Source of the DNA: a virus
Length of the DNA stretch: 25,787 nt
IMG/VR virus record: IMGVR_UViG_3300049914_000387
Location: 1-25,787 of that record
Strand: one strand, 5' to 3'
Part shown: in pieces, positions 15,736 through 24,050 of the stretch
Numbering within the stretch: the stretch's first letter is position 1
Layout of the letters: the number at the start of each line of letters is the position of its first letter
Notes under the pieces: model-generated
Seen by the model: only the letters and a program-made list of their open reading frames with translations
What the model was told of the DNA's origin: nothing
Database searches by the model: none
Made by a program: the position numbers and the translations under genes

Positions 15736-17421
15736 TCACCGTAGGTTTGCTAGCAGCGATTCAGCCTCAGCGGTCCGGGCGGCGGCCAGGTCGTGAGCGT
15801 TGGCCGATGGCAACCCGCCGCCGGCCAGCAGCAACGCCTTCAGGGCGATCACCAGGGCCGTCACGCCGTCGATTCGCAGAGGGGAACTTTCATTTTCCTT
15901 GCTGGGAAAACATCCGCCGTTGGCGGTTTCGGTCAGACAAACATTCTCGATGCAATAGCCTATGACGGCGTTGCCATCGTGAACGATCGTCCCGGTTTCA
16001 ATCCGCGTTTCCAGTTCACGGCAAGCGTCGGCAAGTTTGCCGCCCTGATAGATCACGCGACAGTCGATGCCGTCGCGCTGAAGGTCATTCATCAGGTAGC
16101 TGGCATACTTGCGGTCGAATCCCACCGCTTGAAGGTTGCCGCCGGCGGCGATCGCCCGGACGTGCGCGCCGATGAAATCGAAGTCGATGACCTCGGCATT
16201 CAACAGCGTCAGATCGCCGGCGTCCGCCCACAGCTTGTAGTCCGCTTCGTCGCGGAGGGACTTTTCCTCGATCCCGCGGTTCGGCAGCCAGAACGTCGGC
16301 TTGAAGTAAAGTATGCCGTTGGTCGCGTCCGGCCAGATCGCCGCGCAGGTGCAAAGGTCGTTTCGCTTGGACAGATCGATGCCAAGGTAACAGGGCAGCC
16401 GACGCAGCAGATCGTCCGGCAGCTCGGCGAAATTCCGACGGCACGCCGACCAGTCTGTCCAGTTCAGCCACCGGCTGGCGGCCTCGGTCCATTGATCGCA
16501 GTTCTTTTGCCGGAAGCTCGGCCGGGCCTTTGGATTGTCCAGGGCGTCCTGCCATCGCTTACGCAGGACTTCTTCCCGGATGGTGACGCCCAGGCCGGGG
16601 TTAGCGGCCTTGACTTGCTCGAAGTCCATCCAGCCGTCGCCTTCGGGCACGGCGTACATGATGGGCAGCGTGCGGATATCGGCGGCCTTCCCGTCGATAA
16701 GCTCCAGGCACCGCTTGAATTTTTCCCAGCACGGGCCGCGTTTCGTGCGGCCGGCCGTGGAGATGGCGAACACCATCGGGCTGGGTAGCTTGTCCGCCGA
16801 TTCGGTGACGGTATCGACCGTCGATTGATCGACGCCGTGCAGCTCTTCCAGAATGCCCGGCCCCGTGAATCCGTCCAGGCGGGTGGACTTGTTCGTTTCC
16901 TTGGCCTTCAGCTTCAGCGTGACGCCGAGGCGCGGATAATGCAGCCGGCGATAGTACGGCTGCAACTCCACTTCGCCCGATGTGATTAGCTCCGACGGCT
17001 CGCCGTCCGGCGGCCGCAACGCGGACTCGGCGTAGCCCCAAATAATCGAGGACTGGTCGATCGTGGGGCTGACAACGTTAATTTCACAATTCGCCGGCAG
17101 GGGTTCGACGAACGGCAGGATTGCCAGCAGCGGAGCAAGACTCGATGACTTGGCGTTTCCTCGCGGCACAAAGCAATAACAATACCAGTGCCGCCGGCTT
17201 CCGTCCGGCATCCGCCAACCGAAGAAACGCCAAACGAGATCGCGAAACCACGGCAGCCATTCAAACGGTACAAACTCGGCCGGCCCGGTCTTGCGGGTGA
17301 GGTAGTTCCACGCCAAAGTTTCAACGCGCTGTGGAAACGTCGGATCGAAATAGCAGCCTTGACTGGCCGCCATTTCATCACTGACCGTTTTAATCCACTG
17401 TCGCGGTACTTGCTCATTCAT
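15736..17421 (-). CDS. terL: Terminase large subunit
   Basis: A 561-residue packaging motor with ATPase and nuclease. The ATPase part has a variant Walker A, VPRGNAKSSS (85-94), a VVSPTIDQSS strand and helix, and a Walker B-like GILEELHG (189-196). The nuclease part begins at CYLGIDLSKRNDL (D349) and closes with a RIDGVTALVIALKAL helix bearing another Asp. The length is typical of the Terminase_1/HK97-like family. The ATG overlaps the small terminase stop in ATGA (17418-17421), and the portal follows by 4 bases. Confidence 0.95.
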   Translation of the reverse strand: MNEQVPRQWIKTVSDEMAASQGCYFDPTFPQRVETLAWNYLTRKTGPAEFVPFEWLPWFRDLVWRFFGWRMPDGSRRHWYCYCFVPRGNAKSSSLAPLLAILPFVEPLPANCEINVVSPTIDQSSIIWGYAESALRPPDGEPSELITSGEVELQPYYRRLHYPRLGVTLKLKAKETNKSTRLDGFTGPGILEELHGVDQSTVDTVTESADKLPSPMVFAISTAGRTKRGPCWEKFKRCLELIDGKAADIRTLPIMYAVPEGDGWMDFEQVKAANPGLGVTIREEVLRKRWQDALDNPKARPSFRQKNCDQWTEAASRWLNWTDWSACRRNFAELPDDLLRRLPCYLGIDLSKRNDLCTCAAIWPDATNGILYFKPTFWLPNRGIEEKSLRDEADYKLWADAGDLTLLNAEVIDFDFIGAHVRAIAAGGNLQAVGFDRKYASYLMNDLQRDGIDCRVIYQGGKLADACRELETRIETGTIVHDGNAVIGYCIENVCLTETANGGCFPSKENESSPLRIDGVTALVIALKALLLAGGGLPSANAHDLAAARTAEAESLLANLR

Positions 17422-18468: not shown

Positions 18469-18780
18469 TTAAGTAGTCATCTCGACCAACGCAGGAACGG
18501 CCGCCCGCAATTCCTCACGGCTGCCACGGCCGTAGGGCCTGGGCCTGGGCAAGCCGGCCGCCACGACCTTGTTACAGGCACGTCGTAACGTCTGCCGGAC
18601 GGCACCGGCTGGAACGCCCAGGAAGCCAGCCACATCCGCCTCGCTGTAGCCGTCGCTGTAGCAACTCGCCAGGATGTGCCGCTCCAGTTCGGTCAGCCGC
18701 AGTTTGTCGATGAAGCGACGCTGAATCAGCGTAACCCGTGAAGGACGCAAATCTTCCGGGCATTCATCGTCTGCGGACAT
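18469..18780 (-). CDS. Sigma-70 region 4-like transcription regulator
   Basis: A 103-residue protein with GGAGG about 9 bases before the ATG. Residues 29-72 (RLTELERHILASCYSDGYSEADVAGFLGVPAGAVRQTLRRACNKV) form a helix-turn-helix of the sigma region 4 type (LtelErhIl...y..G.s..dvA..LgvpagaVrq.l.RA). Similar short proteins in phages (ArpU/RinA-like) switch on late genes. It stands directly before the packaging module and after an AT-rich leader of 116 bases, fitting a late-gene activator. No region 2 is present, so it is not a full sigma factor. The specific target is inferred. Confidence 0.8.
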   Translation of the reverse strand: MSADDECPEDLRPSRVTLIQRRFIDKLRLTELERHILASCYSDGYSEADVAGFLGVPAGAVRQTLRRACNKVVAAGLPRPRPYGRGSREELRAAVPALVEMTT

Positions 18781-19247: not shown

Positions 19248-19576
19248 GGTTGGCCCCCCTTCGCGGCCACCCGAACCCGCTCGACAAAACCAAGGCACCA
19301 GTGCCACGCCGTCAGCGGCGGGCCGATGATGTGCTTTCCCTCCACCCGCCAAGGACCGCCGATTTCAGCTTGGCAGGTATAGCTGGTGATCCGTCCGTCC
19401 AGCCGCCCGCTGACGGCCCGCAGATTCAGACAGTCGATGCACCGGCCGAGCTTCAGGGCCGGCACTTCATCCGCCACATCAGCCGCTTCCGGCGGCCAGG
19501 CAGGCTCACCAGCAGCGGCAGTTTTCGCCGGTGGTGGCGACAACAAATCCAGGTTGCCCTTGCGAAAACGGTACAT
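19244..19576 (-). CDS. Small Cys-containing protein, unknown
   Basis: A 110-residue protein. The ATG at 19576 (MYRFRKGNLDLL) has GGAAGGGA about 6 bases upstream, so it is preferred to a TTG two codons earlier. After an Ala/Pro linker come GRCIDCLNL (CxxC), SYTCQAEIGGPW and AWHWCLGFV, four Cys in a zinc-ribbon-like spacing. It is the first gene after the iteron-like region and stands only 27-30 bases from the nearest AGTACCGC repeat, so its promoter may overlap those repeats. Possibly it takes part in replication or in control of it. No family recognised. Confidence 0.72.
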   Translation of the reverse strand: MYRFRKGNLDLLSPPPAKTAAAGEPAWPPEAADVADEVPALKLGRCIDCLNLRAVSGRLDGRITSYTCQAEIGGPWRVEGKHIIGPPLTAWHWCLGFVERVRVAAKGGQP

Positions 19577-19603
19577 AATCAATCCCTTCCGTGGGGTAAG
19601 AAA

Positions 19604-19858
19604 CGAGTACCGCGGCGAGTACCGCAGTCAGTACCGCACAACACGCCGATATAAGGTTTCTCCGCAATGTGGGTTGCGGACGAGTACCGCGAAATACCTC
19701 ACAAAATACAGATTCATCGCACACACGCGCCCGCCTGCGCACGCAAAGGGTAGGCGGACTCTGCGGGACTTCGCGGGACCGCCGCGACAAGCCCCCACCG
19801 GCAAACGTCTTGCCCCTGCCTACCATCGCGGTACTTTGTGCGGTACTACTGCGGTACG
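19604..19858. other. Iteron-like region: candidate replication origin
   Basis: Within the 414-base gene-free gap, AGTACCGC occurs at 19606, 19618 and 19630, exactly 12 bases apart, and at 19683. The reverse form GCGGTAC occurs at 19828, 19840 and 19851 (12 and 11 apart). Between the clusters lie a hairpin (19661-19680, TCCGCAA/TTGCGGA), an AT-richer stretch (about 19692-19720) and degenerate copies GCGGGAC at 19763 and 19773. The gap follows the primase-helicase gene. This is the layout of an initiator-bound origin, though a multi-site operator is also possible. Confidence 0.6.
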
Positions 19859-19880
19859 CAAAAACGGTGCGGACGGCGGC

Positions 19881-19940
19881 AACGCCCCGCACGTCGCGAC
19901 GGCGGCCGACACGGCCGCACGGGCCGAACGTGTTTACACG
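19881..19940 (-). repeat. Dispersed 60-bp repeat with CGTGTAAACACG palindrome, copy B
   Basis: The reverse complement of this stretch matches 6611-6670 at about 48 of 60 positions. The palindrome lies at 19929-19940. It sits between the right iteron cluster and the end of the primase gene. A shorter match (CCTGGCGGCG, then GTGTAAACAC after 2-3 bases) is found on the - strand near 24197-24222. Confidence 0.6.
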
Positions 19941-19996
19941 CACGCCGCCAGGGCGGCCGTTACAGATAGAGGCGAACCTTGTATCGCCGATCTTCA

Positions 19997-22339
19997 TCAT
20001 GGCTCACCGTCCCCGCTGCCGGCCGCGGCGGGCAGGTTGTCGCCGGCGGGCAGGCCGATGCCTTCGTAGAACCGGCCGGTCAGATGATTTCGCCGAATGC
20101 GAACGCCGGGGCAGACGGCCGCCAGTTCCCGGCCGAAGCTCTGTCGCGTCGTGGCCTGGTCGCGGCCGTCGGCCTCGCACCATGCCTTCCAGGCGGCGTA
20201 GAGGTCCGCGACGGTGGCTGATAGGCGTTCGCCGACTTCGCATCGCTCGCGGACGAATGCCGCCACGGGGCTGGTCAGGTCCGCCAGCATTTCGACCGCC
20301 TGGGCGGACGAATCCGGCGTGACGAATTTGCCGCGTGCGTGCAGCCGCTCCCAGCCGCCAAGCGCCCAGTTCAAAATGCCGGGCAACTCGCCGCGCAGGC
20401 GGTTGAACAGGCCGATGTCCTCGTGCCCATACCAACTCGACCGCAGCGTCAGCACCAGGAACCGCCCCGCCAGCGCGCCGGCCGCGTCGCGCAGGCGCGG
20501 AAGCTCGTTGGCCAGGAAGGCGAATCGCGTGTTCAATTTCGCCGTGAGGTGATCCTGATACATCCGCCGGATCGTCAGCACGTCCTCACCGCTGATGCAC
20601 AGCAGCCGTTCGACGATCGTTTGGGCGTTCGGTCCGCTGAAACGCGCGTCGGAGATAATCGCCAAGCTCTTGCCGATAAGCTGTTGCAAGCCGAACGTCT
20701 CGCCGAGGCTGTCGGTCGTGGGGCCGGCGACGTTGGCCTTGCCGATTAGCTCGGTCATCACCCGGCCGATCGTGCCCTTGCCGCTGCGCCGCGGGCCGAC
20801 CAGCAGCAGCATCTTTTGCTGGCCGGTGTCCGGCGTGAGGCAATAGCCGAACCATTCCTGGAGCAAGTCGATCGCCCCGCCGTCGTCGGGCCACAGTTGC
20901 CGCAGAAACGCGATCCATTCTTCAGGCACGGGCGCTTCAGGATCGAAATCGAAGTCCAGCGCATTGAACGTGAACAGGTCCGGCGTCGGCGGCAGTACCG
21001 CGGCGGTGGGAATGTGCAGCGACATGGAATGGCAGGGCAGCACGTCGCGCGCGGCGATATCATCGCGCCCGGAAAGCCAAAACGGCACGTCGGCGGCCAC
21101 GGGGATATGCACCGCCGAGCGGATCGTGTCCAGGGCGGCGTTGACCGTCGCCGGATTCGCCGGAAACGGCACGAGTTCGGGCTTGTCCCCGCCGCTGTAG
21201 GTTAGCGAGTCGTGCAGCCAGGGTTGCAGCCGGTGGCGGATCGCTTCGTCCTCGGCCTCCCGGTAGGCGTTGGCGTTCCAGGCGTACAGCGTGCCGGCGT
21301 AGGCGTGCAGCGTGCGGCCGTCCTTGCGCGTATGGAAGGCCCGAAGGTACGCCCTCGCCGTCGGCAGCGTCCGCCGCGTGGAAAGAACCAACCGCTTTGA
21401 ATCCGGGTCGATCTCGCCCAACCGTACCGCCCCGCCTGCGTCCGCCAAGTCGGCGGCGGCGTCATCCGTTGCCGCAGTCGGCGCGGCGACTGCCGGCGAC
21501 GGCGATTCCGGCATTGTGCGGGGCGATTTCGCGCCGCTGTCAATGCCGCTGGCAATCGTGGCGGTGATCTCGCCGGCGGGCAGGCCCGCCCGCTTGGCGG
21601 CGTCCGCCAGGACCGCTTCGACCGTCGATCGGTCCAGCAGGCCGCCGGCGATGAGCTGGCCGAGGCTATAGGCCGCTTCGTTTAGCGTGCTGTTGCGCGT
21701 GCCTTCGGCGGCGGCGGCCACTTTGCGGGCCTCACCGTCCAGGGCGGCCAGGGCGTAGCGGCGGGCGCGATCATTTAGCGGTTGCGGATGGTCGCCGGTA
21801 GCCGGCGGCGGGCGATGGTCCATCGAATCGCCGGCGACAAGCATCGCCAGCAGGTTTGCCGGCAAATCGGCCAGGGCGATCTGCCCCGGCGCGCGGCCGT
21901 CCATCCAGGCGTAAGGTTTGCCTGTTTCGGGATGGACGCTGCCGGGATAGACCACCTGGCCGCCGTCGCCGCGGGTATCGACGCCGGGGGCGATCCGGCC
22001 GGAGCTGTTGCCCAACTCGACGCCGGCCGGTAGGCGGAAATACAGATGCCATCCGCCGCCGCCGGTGACGGCGGTGATCGTCGCCGGAAGGTTCAATGCC
22101 TTGACGGCGGCCTTGTCAAAATTCGTCTTGGCGGCGTCCAGGTCCACCACCAGCACCCCGCCGCTGGCTGCCCCGGTGCGCAGGCCGACGTTGCCGCGCT
22201 CGGCCCACAGCAGCGCTTGCTGGAGCGTTTCGCGCGGGCGCTTCTGCCAACCGTCCAGCGTGGGGCGCTTGCCGGCCAGGGGGGTGAAGCTCCACCCCAT
22301 GCCGTAGCCGATTTCGACGTTGCGCTGGAGATTGCTCAC
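19997..22339 (-). CDS. Bifunctional primase-polymerase / SF3 helicase
   Basis: A 780-residue replication protein that primes and unwinds DNA. Residues about 10-170 are a Prim-Pol domain: GNVGLRTG, VLVVDLDAA with D66 and D68, TGGGGWHLYF with H98, and DTRGDGGQVVYPGSVH. A linker (about 175-310) follows. From about 470 comes a D5/P4-type SF3 helicase: Walker A GPRRSGKGT (515-523), Walker B-like SLAIISDA (558-565), the FAFLANELPRLRD sensor (606-618) and a C-terminal winged region. It starts with GTG at 22339, overlapping the PnuC-like stop. The iteron-like region lies directly downstream, as expected for a phage replication unit. Confidence 0.94.
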   Translation of the reverse strand: MSNLQRNVEIGYGMGWSFTPLAGKRPTLDGWQKRPRETLQQALLWAERGNVGLRTGAASGGVLVVDLDAAKTNFDKAAVKALNLPATITAVTGGGGWHLYFRLPAGVELGNSSGRIAPGVDTRGDGGQVVYPGSVHPETGKPYAWMDGRAPGQIALADLPANLLAMLVAGDSMDHRPPPATGDHPQPLNDRARRYALAALDGEARKVAAAAEGTRNSTLNEAAYSLGQLIAGGLLDRSTVEAVLADAAKRAGLPAGEITATIASGIDSGAKSPRTMPESPSPAVAAPTAATDDAAADLADAGGAVRLGEIDPDSKRLVLSTRRTLPTARAYLRAFHTRKDGRTLHAYAGTLYAWNANAYREAEDEAIRHRLQPWLHDSLTYSGGDKPELVPFPANPATVNAALDTIRSAVHIPVAADVPFWLSGRDDIAARDVLPCHSMSLHIPTAAVLPPTPDLFTFNALDFDFDPEAPVPEEWIAFLRQLWPDDGGAIDLLQEWFGYCLTPDTGQQKMLLLVGPRRSGKGTIGRVMTELIGKANVAGPTTDSLGETFGLQQLIGKSLAIISDARFSGPNAQTIVERLLCISGEDVLTIRRMYQDHLTAKLNTRFAFLANELPRLRDAAGALAGRFLVLTLRSSWYGHEDIGLFNRLRGELPGILNWALGGWERLHARGKFVTPDSSAQAVEMLADLTSPVAAFVRERCEVGERLSATVADLYAAWKAWCEADGRDQATTRQSFGRELAAVCPGVRIRRNHLTGRFYEGIGLPAGDNLPAAAGSGDGEP

Positions 22340-22569
22340 GTTTGCGCTTTCACCTTCCCCCAGGCCCGCAGCCCCACCACGGCCAGGACGAGAAACACGG
22401 TGTCGCGGAAAGTAAGGGCGTACATGCGCACCGAGGCGTGCAGGGCGGCCGAAACGGTGTTAGAGAAAATCCACAGGTAAAAGCACCGCCGATCCCGGCG
22501 GTTATTCAGAATCACCCCGGCGATGGCCACCACCGTAACCGCCCAACCGGCCGCTTCGGTGAGGATCAC
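22336..22569 (-). CDS. Short PnuC-like membrane protein
   Basis: A 77-residue protein of three hydrophobic helices. The pattern GWAVTVVAIAGVILNNRRDRRCFYLWIFSNTVSAALH, then FRDTVFLVLAVVGLRAWGK, resembles one half of PnuC-type nicotinamide riboside transporters (the N-W-x2-S region and the Y/FL.La..G...W ending). Full PnuC proteins are about three times longer, so this is a half-unit that would have to assemble as an oligomer. It starts with GTG and overlaps both neighbours by 4 bases (GTGA). Set between a methyltransferase and a primase, it may serve nucleotide or NAD metabolism, but transport is inferred only from resemblance. Confidence 0.7.
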   Translation of the reverse strand: MILTEAAGWAVTVVAIAGVILNNRRDRRCFYLWIFSNTVSAALHASVRMYALTFRDTVFLVLAVVGLRAWGKVKAQT

Positions 22570-24050
22570 GATTCGCCCCCTGTCTTGCGGACTTTTTGAA
22601 CAAAAATCACTTCCTCCCAGTCAATCCGGCATTCGCTGTCGGCCGGGAGATCGGATTCATACAGTCGCCGGAAGAAACTTTTGCGTTCTTTGCGCACGAC
22701 GGCCGGCGGACCGAACAGCGTCGGCGTGGTCGTTTCTTCCACCAGGTGCGCCCGAGCGCGGCAGATCGGCGTAGCGCCCAGGGCCGTCAGCAGCCGCAGC
22801 GTGTCGTCGCATAGCCGGACGCGCCGGCGAGCCTTGACGTAATCCTTCACGACGATCGCACAGACACCGCCCGGACGCAGCGCCGCCAGCATGGAGCGAT
22901 AGACCTCGGCCATCGCCTGCCAGTACGTTTCGCCTGCCTCGCGGCCGACTTGTCCTGGCGTCTCGCCGTAGGATCGCTGGTAGTTGTCGCTCGCCTTGGC
23001 TGGTGTGAACTTGTCATCGTGGTCATTTAGGCAATCCGCGAACGGCGGACTTGTCACGCCCCCGTCGATTCGCCCTTCCGACAGGTTGCCGATGTTGGCC
23101 GGATCGCAGCCGTAGCCGGCGTGACGCTGGGAAGCCCCTAAGCAACCGCCGGCAGCCGGATCGTTGCGCTTGGCGAGTGAATGTTCGCGCGTTTCCTGCT
23201 CACTGTTGTCGCCTCGGATGCTGTCGGCATACGGCGGGCTGGTCAGCACGGCGGCCAGGGATCCATCGGACAGCCCTTCGATCTGGCCATCGGAGTCGCC
23301 GTAGCGTGCGAATTCCCCCGGCTCGGCCTGTTGCGTCCCTCGCTCGCCGCCGCGGCGGCCGTTGTGTTCCTGGCTCATTGGCAGGTTGTACGGCGGACTG
23401 GACAGCACACCGTCAAGATTGCCTTCCACGAGGGACGCAATCTGTCCCGGCGCGCTGCCCTGGTCTTGATAGCCGTGCCCGGTGCCGTGAACGGTGCGAC
23501 TGCAACCATTGCCTTCGGCGATCGGATAGTCGCTCTGACCGCTCAACGCGGCAGCAATCCCCCCGCCGGTTTGCTGGCCGCCGAACGGCGGCGACGATAC
23601 GACGCCGACGATGTGATCGCGGATGATTTCAGCGAAGCGGCGGCTATCGCCCTGAATCAGCACGGGCAGGGGCGCGCCGAGATTTTGCAGGCGCAGCGTG
23701 TGAAGGCTGATATTTTCCCGGCCGAGGCGGACGAACTTTTCCTCCAACTCCACGCCCACCCACCGCAGGCCGTGGTAGGCCGCCACGATGCCGCCAAGCG
23801 CCACACCGCCGAAGGGATCGCCGAGCAAGTCGCCCGCTCGCCAGTAGCCTTGCTCCAGGCCGTGGCGGATGATTCGCTCGATGAGTCCCTTGGCGAACTT
23901 GGCCGGATGCTGGTAGGCGTCCGGCACAATCAGGTCGCCCCATGCGTCGTTGTAGCAGCCGTGCCAGTCCAGGACCGGGATTGCAGACATAGGGGGTGTT
24001 CCGTCAAGAGGTGCGGCTTGTTCGCGCTTTGCGGATTTAGCCTTCGCCAT
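22566..24050 (-). CDS. DNA methyltransferase with four SPP(F/Y) motifs
   Basis: A 494-residue protein likely to methylate adenine N6 or cytosine N4. The AdoMet-binding motif is GDPFGG (77-82) followed by RWVGVELEEKF. The amino-methyltransferase catalytic motif appears four times: SSPPF 152-156, SSPPY 217-221, TSPPY 270-274 and TSPPF 333-337, each after a segment like GQIxxLxxGxxDGV. The end, RKSFFRRLYESD...CRIDWEEVIFVQK, resembles a phage methylase group I recall with such repeats. Only one of the four is needed in known enzymes. It begins after AAGG at ATG 24050 and overlaps the PnuC-like gene. A self-protection role is inferred; no restriction gene is present. Confidence 0.85.
   Translation of the reverse strand: MAKAKSAKREQAAPLDGTPPMSAIPVLDWHGCYNDAWGDLIVPDAYQHPAKFAKGLIERIIRHGLEQGYWRAGDLLGDPFGGVALGGIVAAYHGLRWVGVELEEKFVRLGRENISLHTLRLQNLGAPLPVLIQGDSRRFAEIIRDHIVGVVSSPPFGGQQTGGGIAAALSGQSDYPIAEGNGCSRTVHGTGHGYQDQGSAPGQIASLVEGNLDGVLSSPPYNLPMSQEHNGRRGGERGTQQAEPGEFARYGDSDGQIEGLSDGSLAAVLTSPPYADSIRGDNSEQETREHSLAKRNDPAAGGCLGASQRHAGYGCDPANIGNLSEGRIDGGVTSPPFADCLNDHDDKFTPAKASDNYQRSYGETPGQVGREAGETYWQAMAEVYRSMLAALRPGGVCAIVVKDYVKARRRVRLCDDTLRLLTALGATPICRARAHLVEETTTPTLFGPPAVVRKERKSFFRRLYESDLPADSECRIDWEEVIFVQKVRKTGGES

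Follow-up and report, generated by a model that had tools for sequence, protein, structure and literature searches.

A candidate replication origin behind a D5-type primase-helicase gene in a Planctomycetes-type prophage: iteron words that covary with an RFX-like wing

The Rep helicases of SaPI elements bind iterons just downstream of their own gene through a C-terminal domain, apparently as two hexamers, and the C-terminal domain of Cch2 binds iterons in vitro (PMC7581432). In the Sulfolobus plasmid pRN1, an essential origin lies directly downstream of the gene for orf904 (PMC4234260), and the alpha protein of phage P4 possesses a C-terminal winged-helix origin-binding domain, the structure of which is cited in PMC10516667. 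RFX1 is a known case of a wing that reads the major groove (PMC4333399). In the RepA/ori system of the Vibrio cholerae PLE and in Odn of ICP1, the DNA-binding domain of the initiator and the iterons covary and are swapped as modules (PMC8263062).

Only a minority of phages with D5-type primase-helicases have a known origin. The present results offer a rule that locates the origin immediately behind the gene of the helicase, predict part of the repeat word from five wing residues, name the reading element and make the pairing of initiator and origin partly readable from sequence. Origin choice by a self-loading helicase becomes a testable question. The pairing of wing and word also suggests how co-resident elements could keep their replication apart, and that bacterial viruses use an RFX-like wing to read DNA in replication.

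In this study, we analysed an IMG/VR virus contig over a stretch of 25,787 nucleotides, referred to here as the window. With a probability of roughly 87%, we consider positions 19604-19858 to be the replication origin of a prophage of Planctomycetes type, in which the element's own primase-helicase binds AGTACCGC iterons via a C-terminal RFX-type winged helix.

The iteron array and the adjoining helicase gene

The octamer AGTACCGC occurs eight times in the window, compared with a mean of 0.59 and a maximum of 3 in shuffled sequences. Six of the eight copies lie inside 19604-19858 as two opposed clusters; the copies at 17403 (minus strand) and 20994 (plus strand) are at chance level. As an earlier sequence-only reading had described, the forward form is repeated at exact 12-base steps in the left cluster (19606-19613, 19618-19625 and 19630-19637, plus strand), with one further single copy on the left side (19683-19690, plus strand). 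The same reading counted three reverse copies in the right cluster. Two of these are exact and 12 bases apart (19828-19835 and 19840-19847, minus strand), but the third, 11 bases further on, is CGTACCGC (19851-19858, minus strand), which matches AGTACCGC at 7/8 positions. Degenerate copies between the clusters were also correctly noted: three are present at 19753-19780 in 10-base steps, with the minus-strand forms GGTCCCGC, AGTCCCGC and AGTCCGCC. One was found by scan (GCGGGACT, 19763-19770) and two were read from the sequence (GGCGGACT, 19753-19760; GCGGGACC, 19773-19780). The form AGTCCCGC is itself the iteron word of a relative, L061. The gap from the primase stop to the next ORF is 414 bp; its description as the sole gene-free stretch of more than 300 bases holds if the 78-aa ORF, without a Pfam match, that is all the comparable gap 949-1294 contains is counted as a gene.

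The centre between the clusters comprises a 13-nt alternating purine-pyrimidine tract (CGCACACACGCGC, 19718-19730), found by sequence scan, and an AT-richer stretch beside it (19691-19717) that may be the melting site. Such tracts are enriched family-wide, that of the window being short compared with those of its relatives. The GC content is 0.50-0.55 in 60-bp intervals over 19660-19749 versus approximately 0.65-0.75 in most flanking intervals. The hairpin reported between the clusters is present (arms TCCGCAAT/GTTGCGGA, 19661-19680), but the region folds no better than shuffled sequences (z = -0.76 for 19640-19760 and -1.82 for 19691-19762), and it has no long stem-loop of the kind found in a pRN1-type origin. 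A pRN1-like stem-loop origin was rejected for the family as well, the centre showing shuffle-like folding in most loci with L010 (z = -3.2) as the sole outlier. An RNA element was likewise discarded, as an Rfam search gave no match. The promoter and operator scan detected one minus-strand hairpin resembling a terminator, no better than chance, and no match to a sigma-70-type promoter in 19400-20100, the only promoter type that the scan covers.

The adjoining gene (19997-22339, minus strand) encodes a 780-aa primase-helicase of the Prim-Pol and D5/SF3 type, the proposed self-loading initiator, as assigned by Pfam (Prim-Pol, 6.9e-33; DUF5906, 1.4e-12; Pox_D5, 3.6e-6), PHROG (DNA primase, 2e-70) and Foldseek. 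The best Foldseek match of the helicase is the SaPI5 primase-helicase 7ola (E = 3.4e-17, with a moderate TM-score of 0.6), which was also matched in a sequence profile search of the PDB (E = 2.4e-26). Like a SaPI-type self-loading replicon, the window has a D5/SF3 (Primase_Cterm-like) helicase and an iteron cluster directly 3' of the helicase gene. The helicase part was modelled with AF2 from an alignment with 103 relatives (mean pLDDT 95). By this model, by profile matches and by Pfam, the tail carries a predicted RFX-like winged helix (residues 685-763; 20051-20287, minus strand). The profile of the tail family matches RFX5 (1.8e-5) and hRFX1 (1dp7, 4e-4), the similarity to the RFX type extends over the domain, and Pfam RFX_DNA_binding was found in 26 of the 103 relatives. 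The wing hairpin is formed by residues 747-751 and 755-762 in the AF2 model.

Two Cys-containing ORFs without a family, a sigma-70 region-4 protein, an HNH protein, the small and large terminases and the portal are encoded downstream on the same strand; the terminase and portal genes set the window apart from a satellite of the SaPI kind, which has no virion genes of its own. Several other features of the record deserve mention. A 103-aa protein (18469-18780, minus strand) comprises barely more than sigma-70 region 4 and is a possible phage transcription regulator. A 494-aa ORF resembling N6/N4 DNA methylases (22566-24050, minus strand) contains the SPP[FY] motif four times, as if internally repeated, the catalytic-type copies being SSPPF, SSPPY, TSPPY and TSPPF. 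Between the methylase and primase genes, a 77-aa ORF (22336-22569, minus strand) matches only the C-terminal third of PnuC-type NMN transporters. Both record ends (1 and 25787) fall on the ATG start codon of an ORF, as though a provirus had been trimmed at gene borders, and attachment sites and host flanks are absent from the record.

Conserved layout and changing words among relatives

Helicase scans of viral and genome collections gave 208 loci including the window, of which 205 had a closed frame, and 175 were unique after deduplication. An opposed cluster was defined as an 8-mer with at least two copies per orientation, and was sought in 400-bp intervals that begin where the helicase domain ends. 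Such clusters follow the helicase gene in 40% of the 175 loci versus 0.5% elsewhere in the same loci, and in 48% versus 0.25% for the 105 closest loci. Alternating purine-pyrimidine runs of at least 14 nt are present after the gene in 28% of the loci (43% of the closest) versus 1.3% elsewhere. In the set of 68 curated loci, the commonest tandem step is 10 bp, alternating tracts of at least 10 nt are flanked by iterons on either side in 53/56 loci, and the CGC end points inward for the majority orientation left of the tract in 54/56. The window is atypical among its relatives: its first iteron is approximately 139 bp from the stop versus a median of 13, and its iterons are spaced by 12 and 11 bp versus the usual 10 bp.

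The layout is constant while the words change. Most words have the form NNNNN-CGC, and 24 distinct five-base words were counted among the 68 curated loci. They include AGTACCGC (window and L010), TGTACCGC, ACTGTCGC, ACCGTCGC, ACCGACGC, TGGCACGC and TGGAACGC, and further AGTCCCGC, ACCTGCGC, ACATGCGC, ACAAGCGC, ACCCCCGC, TGGTCCGC, TGTCACGC and more. Conservation of the repeats in related phages, on which the earlier reading turned, is borne out: L010 and L333 carry AGTACCGC itself, L127 has a mixed form, and the layout is kept with other words elsewhere. The N-terminal primase modules vary among the relatives while the helicase and tail are common to them, and the origin therefore goes with the helicase.

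The same layout after the helicase gene is found in the 16-kb circular Streptomyces virginiae plasmid NZ_CP108186 (CCTGAACA, 11 copies) and in a Pseudonocardia plasmid (AGGCGGGG, six copies), both of which may be phage-plasmids because they carry a terminase gene. Marinobacter phiTHAF39 has copies of AAGGGACA after the helicase gene, and the lytic relatives Alteromonas R9Y1, Escherichia Bas82 and Vibrio have no such cluster there. Some loci depart from the pattern in their own ways. In Alteromonas phage R9Y1 (L378), where repeats are absent after the gene, AACGTTAC occurs five times approximately 2.9 kb upstream of the gene end, perhaps as a relocated origin. In L016 (7311-7689), the helicase frame runs approximately 125 codons further, through the iteron cluster. 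L018 contains at least 13 copies of CTCGCGGC/GCGGCACT upstream of the helicase (2495-2715); these differ from the L018 iterons, GGTCCATA, and look like a tandem coding repeat.

The position of the repeats bears on two other explanations. A cos or pac packaging site bound by the small terminase would suit the HNH and terminase genes 1.3-2.2 kb downstream and the terminase gene of the two best plasmid relatives, but we regard it as highly improbable, the position being anchored to the helicase gene across the 175 loci and the word following the wing residues of the helicase. Still less credible are arm-type integrase sites or a neutral expansion of tandem repeats, for which the opposed orientation, the fixed polarity and the covariation with the helicase would be unexpected; an integrase gene is present in the same record, but approximately 18.6 kb away on the linear record.

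Covariation of the repeat word with the helicase wing

For each protein column, we correlated mismatch in pairs of loci with how far their words diverged at the five variable positions, correcting for divergence of the helicase body. Words were framed manually in the first 68 loci, and the analysis was repeated with machine-called words from 67 loci, old and new. With the hand-framed words, the top six of 381 protein columns all lay at residues 748-756 (r = 0.30-0.50), the codons of which occupy 20072-20098 on the minus strand (IRRNHLTGR in the window), whereas body columns had a mean r of 0.003 (s.d. 0.07, maximum 0.27). The wing mean was reached by 0/1000 within-clade permutations at three redundancy levels; with redundancy reduced most strictly (41 loci), two columns of the body ranked among the top four. 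Along the tail the signal forms a sharp peak that falls to near zero immediately ahead of residue 748 and beyond 757, a profile that speaks against simple linkage. With the machine-called words, the nine best columns all fell within the winged helix, and seven of these belonged to the wing; columns 752 and 754 reached r values of 0.56 and 0.43, and the best body column 0.23.

Individual residues were paired with individual bases in these 67 loci. A at base 5 accompanied Q, N or H750 in 18/18 loci versus 3/49 loci without these residues, G5 accompanied L, V, M or C750 in 7/7 versus 1/60, and C or T5 accompanied R750 in 32/33 versus 6/34. R752 was found with TG in 27/29 loci (4/38 without it) and T, S or A752 with AC in 27/34 (0/33), while G4 occurred with R748 in 19/24 versus 3/43. 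Because bases 7 and 8, mostly GC, correlate with columns of the helicase body, which looks like deep phylogeny, they were omitted from the code. All 202 of 202 pairs with identical wings differed by 0 or 1 base in the word at body identities of 0.44-0.99, and pairs with at least three wing differences differed at 3.6-3.7 of the five bases at every body identity; both counts are descriptive, since sequence pairs are not independent.

Further scans provided 91 helicases with less than 97% body identity to the first set, 24 of them with a machine-called NNNNNCGC word. The nearest wing neighbour predicted 94/120 variable bases in these loci and the nearest body neighbour 71/120; in this small held-out set, prediction from the wing was better in 11 and worse in 2 (p = 0.022). 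Q or N750 was again found with A5 (10/10 versus 1/14) and R752 with TG (15/16 versus 0/8). L333, with the wing TRRNQ, has the word AGTACCGC as in the window, whereas its nearest body relative has TGGCACGC. L345 shares 88% body identity with L063 (ACCTGCGC), yet has the wing TRQAR and the word TGTCACGC.

Taken as a code, these pairings would be near-modular, with residue 748 specifying base 4, 750 base 5, 751/752 bases 1-2 and 754 base 3 (for example, Q/N/H750 for A5, L/V/M/C750 for G5 and R752 for TG). It is fairly probable that a large class of phage and plasmid replicons has come to differ in origin specificity through a few wing changes of this kind, and that this specificity is predictable from the protein. 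The wing codons and iterons are closely linked, and specificity modules are known to be swapped in other systems (PMC8263062), so the repeats might be origin-like while the association of wing and word reflects hitchhiking within a few hundred bp that recombination moves together. We consider this quite unlikely, as r is near 0 for residues just before the wing and for those that separate it from the iterons, different residues pair with different base positions, and the same residue-base matches recur at only approximately 40-60% shared body and in the new loci.

Elements that reside in one genome were also compared. Genome G203 contains L304 and L345, which have 89% helicase-body identity, the wings SRMGS and TRQAR and differing words; the pair appears from its sequences to be a recent specificity switch. 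A strict rule that co-resident elements have differing words was rejected: most pairs differ, but the G544 pair shares ACTGTCGC and the G726 elements have nearly the same wing and words, and because of these two pairs the rule is not absolute. Separately, the distant relatives L360, L361 and L364, from different genomes, have the common word CTAGGGAC and wings of the form RxRxRxRxY, possibly a further class of the code.

Covariation tells only which protein binds and not the purpose of binding. The repeats could thus be operators through which the helicase or another phage regulator controls the downstream genes (Cys-rich ORFs, sigma-like, terminase); they separate the primase gene from the genes that follow it on that strand, and initiators often regulate as well. 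This function is unlikely in view of the symmetric layout around a low-complexity centre, the same layout on circular plasmid records and the promoter scan, limited to the sigma-70 type, described above. Looping between the clusters, a repressor role and binding by the Cys-rich proteins, all raised in the earlier reading, gained no support from these analyses but may apply.

Proposed mechanism and comparison with known systems

The RFX-like tail, the wing mode of RFX1, the analogy to SaPI Rep and the structural match to SaPI5 together lead us to an origin bound by the wing of its own helicase. The suggestion that the repeats are initiator binding sites beside replication genes is likewise favoured by their position and layout in relatives and by the covariation of word and winged helix. 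We infer that the primase-helicase, encoded just upstream, would bind the AGTACCGC iterons by its C-terminal RFX-type winged helix, the wing hairpin (748-756) reading the five variable bases and more conserved parts of the domain reading the near-constant CGC. The opposed clusters, with their CGC ends inward, may position helicase assemblies to either side of the centre. The centre would then be melted at the AT-richer stretch and the alternating purine-pyrimidine tract, after which the Prim-Pol domain would prime synthesis, the region thereby acting as an origin.

Among described systems, the RFX proteins (hRFX1 and RFX5) resemble the tail in a profile match over the whole domain including the wing, but they are eukaryotic transcription factors, whereas here the domain is a helicase tail with diversified wings. 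The PLE and ICP1 systems employ a RepA_N initiator without a helicase, iterons of approximately 30 bp and swaps of whole domains, in contrast to the residue-by-residue changes seen here. The pRN1 protein orf904 likewise combines Prim-Pol, an SF3 helicase and a winged helix; its origin is a 100-nt stem-loop, in place of which the window has iterons and a centre with shuffle-like folding. The alpha protein of phage P4 is also a primase-helicase with a C-terminal winged helix. P4 has short iterons at two separated sites, ori and crr, unlike the window, where one cluster directly follows the gene and only single AGTACCGC copies occur outside 19604-19858 in a record that may be incomplete. A search of the open-access literature found no description of wing-iteron covariation or of planctomycete origins.

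The closest likeness is to SaPI Rep/ori (SaPI5; PDB 7ola and 7om0) and SCCmec Cch2, which share a self-loading helicase of the D5/Primase_Cterm type with short iterons directly downstream. The element studied here differs from them in having terminase, portal and other virion genes, in iterons that for the most part have a CGC end and lie around an alternating purine-pyrimidine tract, and in a specificity that appears to reside in an RFX-type wing whose residues match bases in a readable pattern. By analogy, the region probably functions in the manner of SaPI Rep/ori and can be grouped with the D5 self-loading initiators; what is new is its breadth in planctomycete prophages, a conserved layout with changing words and the pattern linking wing residues to bases.
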